The notes under the pieces: model-generated
Seen by the model: only the letters and a program-made list of their open reading frames with translations
Told to the model about the DNA's origin: nothing
The model's database searches: none
Made by a program: the position numbers and the translations under genes
NCBI GenBank assembly: GCA_900170005.1
Contig: LT827128.1
Location: 620,001-684,000, forward strand
Source: Gordonibacter massiliensis (ex Traore et al. 2017)
Lineage (GTDB): Bacteria; Actinomycetota; Coriobacteriia; Coriobacteriales; Eggerthellaceae
Direction: 5' to 3'
Length of the DNA stretch: 64,000 nucleotides
In this document: in pieces, positions 59,745-62,333 of the stretch
How positions within the stretch are numbered: position 1 is the first letter of the stretch
How the letters are laid out: each line of letters opens with the position of its first letter

Positions 59745-60880
59745 CTACGAGGCGCTCTCCTCCGCTGCCGGAGCGGCCGTCGTGCCGTACAGCTCCAGAT
59801 AGTCGCCGTCCTTCACCGTGACGGTCTGCGATCCGCCGTGCGCCACGTACTTCGTGTCGGTGATGGAGTCGTCGTCGAAGTCGAGGTCCTTCATGACGAA
59901 CGCCGCGCAATCCTGCTCCGCCGCGTCGGCTGCGGCGGCGTTGACCGTCACGGCGTACGTGCCGGCGGGGATGTCCGTGCCCACGCGGTACAAGCCGCTG
60001 GCGTACGGGGGGCCGGCCGGCTTGAAGTCGGCTTGGGACAGCGGGTAGAAGCGCAGGTCGTCGGCTGCGTCGAACGCGACGACGTCGCCTTCTTCCAAAT
60101 CGGCGAAGTAGTTGCCGAAGTACACGACCGCCTCGCCGAGGCTGTACGAGCCGTCGCCCTCGCCGTCGAACACGTAGAAGTTCGCTTCCTGGTCTTGGCT
60201 GCCTTCGAAGTAATAGCGGCCCGGTTCGATGTCCTTGCCGACTTCGAACACGCCCGGTGTGCAGCGTCCGTCCTCGACCTTGCCCGGGTCGCCATCGAAC
60301 GCCTCCTCGATGTCGGAGAGCGTGAACAGGCCGATCGTTCCGCCGTCGGAGGAATCGCCGTAGTCGTAGCCGTACGGGTAGTCGTACCGGTTGCCGTATC
60401 CGTACCGGTCGTTCGCGACGTCGGATATGACGGTGCAGGCGGTGCAGCTCACGCAACCGCCGATGCCCAGCAAAAGGATGAGGAGCAGGCATCCGGAAAG
60501 AACCCAGGGCCACGCCTTCTTCTTTTCCGGTTGCTGGGGGGTCGCGGGGTACGGCTGCGCCGGGTAGGGCGGAACGGGCGGTTGCGGCCCTGCGCCGTAG
60601 GGCGGATACGGCGGCTGTTGGCCTCCGCCGTAAGGCGGCGTCTGGCCCGTCGGGGCTTGGCCCGTTTGCGCGAAAGGGTTTTGCTGCTGGTAGGGTTGCG
60701 GGGGCTGCTGGGCCGGGTAGACCGGCTGCCCGTAGGGCGGCTGCGCGGGCTGAGGCGGACAGGCCTGCCCGTAGGGCGGCTGATGAGGCGGGTAGGGGGC
60801 GCCGTATGGCGCAGGGGGCTCGGAGCCGGGCAGCGGAGGCTGCTCGTAAGGGGGGGGTTTTGATGCTCGGAATCGGTCAT
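59745..60880 (-). pseudogene. Proline-rich membrane protein, interrupted by a C8 tract (possible phase variation)
   Basis: From ATG 60880 (AAGGAG 6 nt upstream) the chain opens MTDSEHQNP, then meets a run of eight C (60857-60850 on the minus strand) that shifts frame. In the other frame the protein continues: Pro/Tyr/Gln/Gly repeats (PPYGQ, PYPP; about residues 12-120), a membrane helix (WVLSGCLLLILLLGIGGC), then about 230 residues of soluble beta-rich sequence (GRYYFEG, GLYRVGTDIPAGTYAVTV) ending at 59745. Nine C would restore the frame. Function not recognised; the outer domain resembles repeats that follow DUF4190-type Pro-rich N-termini. A start inside the helix (60473) is not credible. 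Confidence 0.8.
60850..60857. repeat. G8/C8 homopolymer in the coding region
   Basis: Eight consecutive G on the plus strand at codons 8-10 of the proline-rich protein. Slipped-strand gain of one unit restores the frame, so the tract can act as an ON/OFF switch. Confidence 0.85.
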
Positions 60881-61040
60881 GGAAGGCTCCTTGCCTGTAG
60901 CGGTCGGCCCCATCTTACCACAGCCGCTCGCCGCCGCTTTTCGACCGCACAGAGACTACAGGCGCGCATGCAGGCGGGCGTTCTTCGCCGGAGAGCGCGA
61001 CTTGCCGGCGCGGGCCGGCTCGTAGCGCGGCGGCCTCGCG

Positions 61041-62333
61041 CTACGCCTCAGCTTCGCCGCCCCCTGTTCCCAGCAGCGCTTCCGCCGTGACTTCCACCAG
61101 GTCGACGGCGCCTTCCGGGCACGCGTTCGCGCACAGGCCGCAGCCGATGCAGTAGCGCGCGTCGTAGGCGAGCGTCCCGTCGGCCGGGTCGGGGCGGCGC
61201 GCGCCCGTGGGACAGACCGCAGCGCAGGCCAGCGCGTTCGTGCAGCGTTCGCAGTCGGTTTCCGACACCACGAGCGGCACGCGCTCGGCGATGCCCGGAT
61301 CGCGGTCGAGCGCCTCCAGCAGCATCTGCCGCTTCGGCCACATGGTCTTCTTCGTGCGCCCCTCGGGCACGAAGTCGTTGAACTCGGTGCCGTTGCCCAG
61401 GTTCAGGCGCGCCAGCGCCCGGGAGCGCTCGCGCCGCTCGTAGAACTCCTGCAGCACCTCGGAGTTGCGCAGGCGGCGCTTGCCGGAGGCGATGTCGCCC
61501 ACGTCGCCCACCAGGTTCGCGAACGCGCTGCGCCGATCGACGCCTACCGGGTTCGCCAAGTCCTTGACCAGGTTCTCCTTCTCGGGAATGACGTCGGTGA
61601 AGCCCACGGGGCGCCCGCTCCACGCCTCGGCGGTCTCCACGGCGTGGGAGTACAGAAGCTCGCCCATGTCGCCGGCGCGCTCGCAGTCGGCGCAATAGGA
61701 CAGGTCGGCTGCGATCTCCACGTCGATGTTCTCGGCCAGCACGAGCGTCCAGAACTCGGGCGACAGGCACGCCAGGCACGGCAGCACCACGACGTTCGCC
61801 GCCGGCTCCAAGCCGGGGAACACGTTCTCCTTGCAGGTGAGCACCACGGTCTCGCCGCGCAGGGCGATGCGGCGGATGCGGGCGTGCAAGTCGGCCATCG
61901 TGACGCGCGTCGACGAGAACGCGTCGCATACGCCCAGGCAGATGTCGCAGCGCGAGCAGGCCCCGGCGTCGATGACCGGGACGCCGTCATCGGAGAACGA
62001 GATGGCTCCATGGGGGCAGGCCAGCGCGCACCGCTCGCAGTCGGCGCCGTGCGCGCGCATGCAGAAGTCTCGCAGCACCACGATGCGCTGCGGGCGCTCC
62101 GGGGCGTCCGCAGCCGCGTCGGCGGCAGTGGGCGAGGGCGCCCCGGACGCGTCGGCGGCAATCGCGGCGGCGCCCGCGGTCACCACGTCGGCAGGCGAAG
62201 CGCCCTCGTTGTCATCCTGAGCGGAGCGAAGCGGAGTCGAAGGATCTTCGGCCGCCGCCGGCGCGCCGTCTTGCCGGGAGCCCGCCCCTGCGGGGTCGCC
62301 GGGAGCCCTGGTGTCTTCGGCCTTGTCAGCCAC
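61041..62333 (-). CDS. 4Fe-4S-binding protein with multiple ferredoxin domains
   Basis: 430 residues. After an Ala/Pro/Asp-rich N-terminus (1 to about 80) come CxxC..C clusters: CMRAHGADCERCALACP, CSRCDICLGVC, later CERCTNALACAAVCP and CIGCGLCANACPEGA. The middle includes CLACL and YCADCERAGD. The layout suggests an electron-transfer hub, partner unknown. GTG 62333 overlaps the gltX stop. Residues about 29-41 (EDPSTPLRSAQDD) are encoded by dispersed repeat copy D. Confidence 0.88.
   Translation of the reverse strand: MADKAEDTRAPGDPAGAGSRQDGAPAAAEDPSTPLRSAQDDNEGASPADVVTAGAAAIAADASGAPSPTAADAAADAPERPQRIVVLRDFCMRAHGADCERCALACPHGAISFSDDGVPVIDAGACSRCDICLGVCDAFSSTRVTMADLHARIRRIALRGETVVLTCKENVFPGLEPAANVVVLPCLACLSPEFWTLVLAENIDVEIAADLSYCADCERAGDMGELLYSHAVETAEAWSGRPVGFTDVIPEKENLVKDLANPVGVDRRSAFANLVGDVGDIASGKRRLRNSEVLQEFYERRERSRALARLNLGNGTEFNDFVPEGRTKKTMWPKRQMLLEALDRDPGIAERVPLVVSETDCERCTNALACAAVCPTGARRPDPADGTLAYDARYCIGCGLCANACPEGAVDLVEVTAEALLGTGGGEAEA
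62211..62247 (+). repeat. Dispersed repeat GTCATCCTGAGCGG..., copy D, inside a coding sequence
   Basis: GTCATCCTGAGCGGAGCGAA then GCGGAGTCGAAGGATCTT. It lies in frame in the low-complexity N-terminus of the 4Fe-4S protein. Confidence 0.85.

Follow-up and report, generated by a model that had tools for sequence, protein, structure and literature searches.

Results

Reading frames at the locus

The gene considered here lies on the minus strand of the window, i.e. the whole 64-kb stretch of DNA that was analysed, and reads from right to left. It starts with an ATG at position 60880, preceded by an AAGGAG ribosome-binding site (60887-60892) in the arrangement AAGGAG-N6-ATG; the relatives share this site and the start. 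Further upstream on the same strand, the sequence TAAGAT (60912-60917) is a probable −10 element of the extended type (TGTGGTAAGAT), as judged from its match to the consensus; the upstream sequence around it is conserved across the genus. Indeed, the 75 nt preceding the start, including the TGTGGTAAGAT element and the ribosome site, are conserved in the relatives together with the first codons (alignment L002, L004, L009). The encoded N-terminus reads MTDSEHQN up to a run of eight C residues on the coding strand (G8 on the plus strand; 60850-60857), which extends from the final base of codon 8 through the first base of codon 11 and disrupts the reading frame. In a homopolymer scan this was the sole run of at least seven residues in the window.

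With eight C residues, the ORF read from the conserved ATG (60449-60880, minus strand) encodes an Arg/Pro-rich product of 143 residues without any sign of function, terminating at the stop at 60449. The frame of the conserved protein is found directly after the tract, running from 60848 to a stop at 59745 (minus strand) through 367 open codons uninterrupted by stops. The sequence-only reading of this DNA had described a good start and ribosome site followed by a frame-breaking C8 run, all of which is confirmed, including the early position of the run and the long intact remainder; its count of 370 out-of-frame codons was slightly too high.

An alternative start in the correct frame was considered and rejected: the long frame contains no ATG, GTG or TTG upstream of the tract and the first candidate past it is a TTG inside the transmembrane helix. 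Some full-length product might instead arise from the C8 allele through slippage of the ribosome or of RNA polymerase on the C run, and the CCC-CCC codon pair would permit re-pairing after such a shift. However, the tract is present in no relative (see below) and hence is not a conserved recoding site, which makes a rescue by frameshifting very improbable.

The encoded protein

The long frame encodes a cytoplasmic segment rich in Pro, Tyr and Gln, a single transmembrane helix (the WPWVLSGCLLLILLLGIGG region, 60459-60509, minus strand) and an extracytoplasmic region composed of two β-rich domains of the Rv1352/Rv1906c type (59760-60335, minus strand). The AlphaFold2 model has a mean pLDDT of 83.5, with values mostly above 90 in the ectodomain. 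The NCBIfam profile NF053833 (Rv1352/Rv1906c domain) matches the ectodomain in two stretches with 43.9 bits, well above the curated cut-off of 25 (E 2e-11). Mycobacterial members of this family are small secreted proteins, whereas the product of the tract gene is predicted to be anchored in the membrane and to carry a Pro-rich cytoplasmic part. A Pfam search of the protein gave no match, a sequence search against solved structures returned nothing significant, and a fold search yielded generic β-sandwich matches only, with a top TM-score of at most ~0.24 (query-normalised). The predicted architecture suggests a role in the cell envelope, and the view of the gene product as a proline-rich, surface-like membrane protein is borne out by the predicted membrane helix and extracytoplasmic domains. 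Of the 138 Eggerthellaceae genomes searched, 60 yielded homologues, in some cases through weak matches to low-complexity parts.

Integrity of the gene

The closest relative in the search set is Gordonibacter sp. 28C, and we accordingly take the window genome to be that of a Gordonibacter (Coriobacteriia). Compared with 28C, the gene shows a dN/dS of 0.24 over 367 codons and of 0.18 in the part comprising the transmembrane helix and ectodomain, and 70 of the 128 differences fall on third codon positions. The branch leading to the window genome carries 17 synonymous and 16 nonsynonymous changes versus 11 and 9 on the sister branch; the two are similar and reveal no extra relaxation. The 367-codon remainder contains no other lesions, and the gene is thus intact and under selection apart from the tract. 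The dN/dS values and the absence of further lesions rule out an old degenerate pseudogene. Over ~28.8 kb of coding sequence aligned with the 28C contig, non-triplet indels otherwise occur only as compensated neighbours, the uncompensated exceptions being the tract gene and one alignment edge close to where the gene at 393-1274 begins. The idea of a generally error-ridden assembly thus finds no support. The intact upstream region, the purifying selection and the lone frame break together imply that this break is very recent, reversible or an error.

Origin of the tract

In the three Gordonibacter relatives whose start region is readable (28C, G065 and G068), the frame is intact and the tract is missing from this locus. 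In these genomes 30-32 codons separate the ATG from a shared YERPPLPG-like motif while the distance is 32 nt in the window gene, so that the relatives possess 20-odd extra codons where the tract is found here. A further relative, G066, is represented by a gapped 3.6 Mb assembly of 82% completeness with a stretch of N at the start of the gene. Since none of the three relatives has the tract, it is specific to the lineage and does not represent a switch maintained throughout the genus. The C8 run coincides with the junction of a deletion specific to this lineage, and the comparison suggests that the loss of about 63-64 nt (64 compared with 28C) between C-rich stretches created it. An orthologue from another genus (G085, L149) likewise seems to change frame in its Pro-rich N-terminal part, with several apparent breaks located at short C runs.

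The deletion alone could have broken the frame. The gene may thus have been killed recently and for good, either by the 64-nt deletion, whose size is not a multiple of three, or by a single slippage event, with no switching involved. The coincidence of the tract with the deletion junction is compatible with such a loss, and the family is absent or below detection in 78 of the 138 Eggerthellaceae genomes, which indicates that the gene is dispensable. On the other hand, the lack of a second lesion, the unrelaxed selection on the branch and the intact promoter region mean that any loss would have to be very young, and a C8 run can slip back. We regard a fixed loss as unlikely on balance.

C/G tracts throughout the genome

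The window genome is assembled as a single contig of 3.95 Mb with a completeness of 99.8%. It contains 544 C/G runs of at least 6 nt, 87 of at least 7 and 57 of at least 8 (loci L068-L120). The numbers of runs of exactly 6, 7, 8, 9, 10, 11, 12, 13 and 14 nt are 457, 30, 11, 12, 16, 7, 7, 2 and 2, respectively, so that a fast decay gives way to a second population around a length of 10. From base composition alone, ~2.8 C/G runs of at least 8 nt would be expected per 64 kb, but the actual genome is far poorer. Of the 57 tracts of at least 8 nt, a crude codon model places only about 3-4 inside genes; nearly all others are intergenic. Given this poor spectrum and the scarcity of tracts within genes, a C8 run in coding sequence is unusual in this genome. 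It is also among the shortest of the long tracts, and slip rates climb steeply with tract length.

Eight tracts have positional counterparts with well-aligned flanks in Gordonibacter sp. 28C. The length pairs at these sites are 11/12, 8/9, 12/10, 10/12, 12/12, 10/10, 9/12 and 12/12, with the indels at three of the eight being less clean than a plain change in run length. Ten genes adjacent to tracts were picked by eye and scanned for protein families, nine of them giving matches (two Bac_transf, three GGDEF/EAL, a LysR regulator, an NTP-transferase/HAD, a GNAT acetyltransferase and a Big_2 protein), a list that is no measure of enrichment. Two capsule-type sugar transferase genes (L092:740-1474 and L095:623-1393) are each closely preceded by a C/G tract whose position is conserved in 28C. 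A GNAT-domain gene of 423 codons contains a G10 run in frame (L099:1495-1504), possibly a coding contingency tract. A dispersed repeat of the type GTCATCCTGAGCGGAGCGAAGCGGAGTCGAAGGATC is found at 62210-62252, in the N-terminal part of a ferredoxin-like gene, and other copies of this repeat type (L069, L102, L115) flank C/G tracts.

One of the GGDEF-EAL genes (G000:C1 about 750,763-750,790; L081:1484-1511/L211) carries a G11 run at codons 6-10 and is in frame, while its relative in the sister species G066 (L212) has an ATG followed by G9 and is out of frame, with homopolymer errors being possible in this gapped, 82% complete assembly. From its sequence, this gene is a better candidate for phase variation than the C8 gene.

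A second break in coding sequence was encountered 8 kb beyond the window, where a C7 run disrupts the frame near the C-terminus of a D-Ala-D-Ala-carboxypeptidase-like gene (L127 ~1502; G000:C1:692440). At this site the C run of Gordonibacter sp. 28C is shorter and interrupted, and the frame is open. Such a break may reflect either real slippage or miscalls at C runs in the assembly.

The second option also applies to the C8 gene: the true tract could have an in-frame length and the gene would then always be on. A single-base break falling precisely on the only long homopolymer of the window, in a gene otherwise intact and constrained, is what a sequencing or assembly miscall would produce, and the other coding break found is likewise in a C run. 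However, the same assembly reports C/G tracts of up to 14 nt, implying that long runs are not simply compressed; moreover it is nearly complete, and the ~29 kb of coding sequence that could be compared contains practically no further frame errors. A miscall thus appears rather unlikely, if still a serious contender.

Mismatch repair

Neither MutS1 nor NucS was detected in any of five Gordonibacter genomes, while the search controls were matched. This agrees with the report that all analysed Coriobacteriia are devoid of NucS and MutS-MutL (PMC5290159). Without MutS1 and NucS, slippage should be poorly corrected. The absence of both proteins and the differing lengths at shared tracts define a genome background that is permissive for slippage.

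Discussion

We have found that a conserved gene for a predicted envelope protein is put out of frame by a C8 tract shortly after its start codon. The best explanation, to which we assign a probability of a little under one half (roughly 0.47), is that the C8 run is real and represents a slip-prone OFF state of a gene behaving as, or drifting into, a phase-variable one. According to this scheme, the Pro-rich N-terminus, a part of the protein under little constraint, would have lost ~63-64 nt of its coding sequence, and this deletion would have fused two C-rich stretches into one long C run. Without MutS1 and NucS, slipped-strand mispairing would then add or remove bases in the run at a much higher rate than elsewhere. 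The genome sequenced would correspond to the OFF configuration, in which translation starts normally but enters a junk frame, and consequently the transmembrane segment and the ectodomain would not be made. The full protein would be produced by cells whose tract has an in-frame length. The existence of C8 in the cells, slippage at the tract, its reversibility and any benefit are what we infer from these comparisons; the sequence suggests that the tract is slip-prone and the gene possibly phase-variable.

Several observations speak against a switch. At 8 bases the tract is short, it is not conserved in the genus and the 64-nt deletion alone yields the same sequence. The C7 break in the carboxypeptidase-like gene may hint at miscalled homopolymers, and as most long tracts are intergenic, a switch within coding sequence would be atypical of this genome. 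The sequence is accounted for about equally well by a miscall, a recent fixed loss or a switch. The original proposal of a slipped-strand switch is therefore sustained in part: the gene architecture, the intact remainder, the repair-less genus, the length-variable tracts and the GGDEF-EAL parallel favour it, while the absence of the tract from three relatives, its location on a deletion junction and its shortness do not.

The arrangement resembles the contingency loci of Campylobacter, Neisseria and Bordetella (PMC8355987, PMC1891110) in that a long C/G run in the 5′ coding part of a surface-type gene sets the frame, and in that many tracts in the genome are close to surface and regulatory genes. 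In contrast to those loci, the tract described here is not conserved and is known from one genome sequence, and the other tracts are mostly intergenic. Because the tract is not kept at this locus in the relatives and one genome per species was compared, the C8 gene is no proven member of the slipped-strand class. In the inlA gene of Listeria monocytogenes, frameshifts in an early homopolymer reversibly switch off a surface protein (PMC2831843); there, however, the tract is a poly(A), the frameshifts have independent origins and their frequencies were measured, whereas the C8 gene is known from sequence alone. Within the same family, surface phase variation occurs at the Eggerthella lenta capsule (PMC13174815), where the mechanism consists of megabase DNA inversions and not slippage.

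On a broader scale, we tentatively consider that the genus, and perhaps other Coriobacteriia without mismatch repair, may possess a repertoire of slip-prone poly-C/G contingency tracts to which the C8 gene would be a newly arisen recruit. Such tracts would be located mostly upstream, and sometimes in the first codons, of genes for capsule sugar transferases, c-di-GMP enzymes, regulators and surface proteins. This is quite conceivable, though somewhat short of an even bet. In the literature searched, which included few subscription papers, neither homopolymer phase variation in Gordonibacter or the Coriobacteriia nor a tract repertoire of this kind is described.

Should the C8 run turn out to be an artefact, it would call for caution when genes of GC-rich anaerobes are declared pseudogenes on account of a C run. 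If it is real, it would capture a surface gene turning phase-variable after an accidental deletion, in a lineage that has neither MutS nor NucS. Gordonibacter inhabits the human gut and is known for metabolising polyphenols, and a real C8 run would point to a repertoire of tracts near its capsule, c-di-GMP and surface genes.
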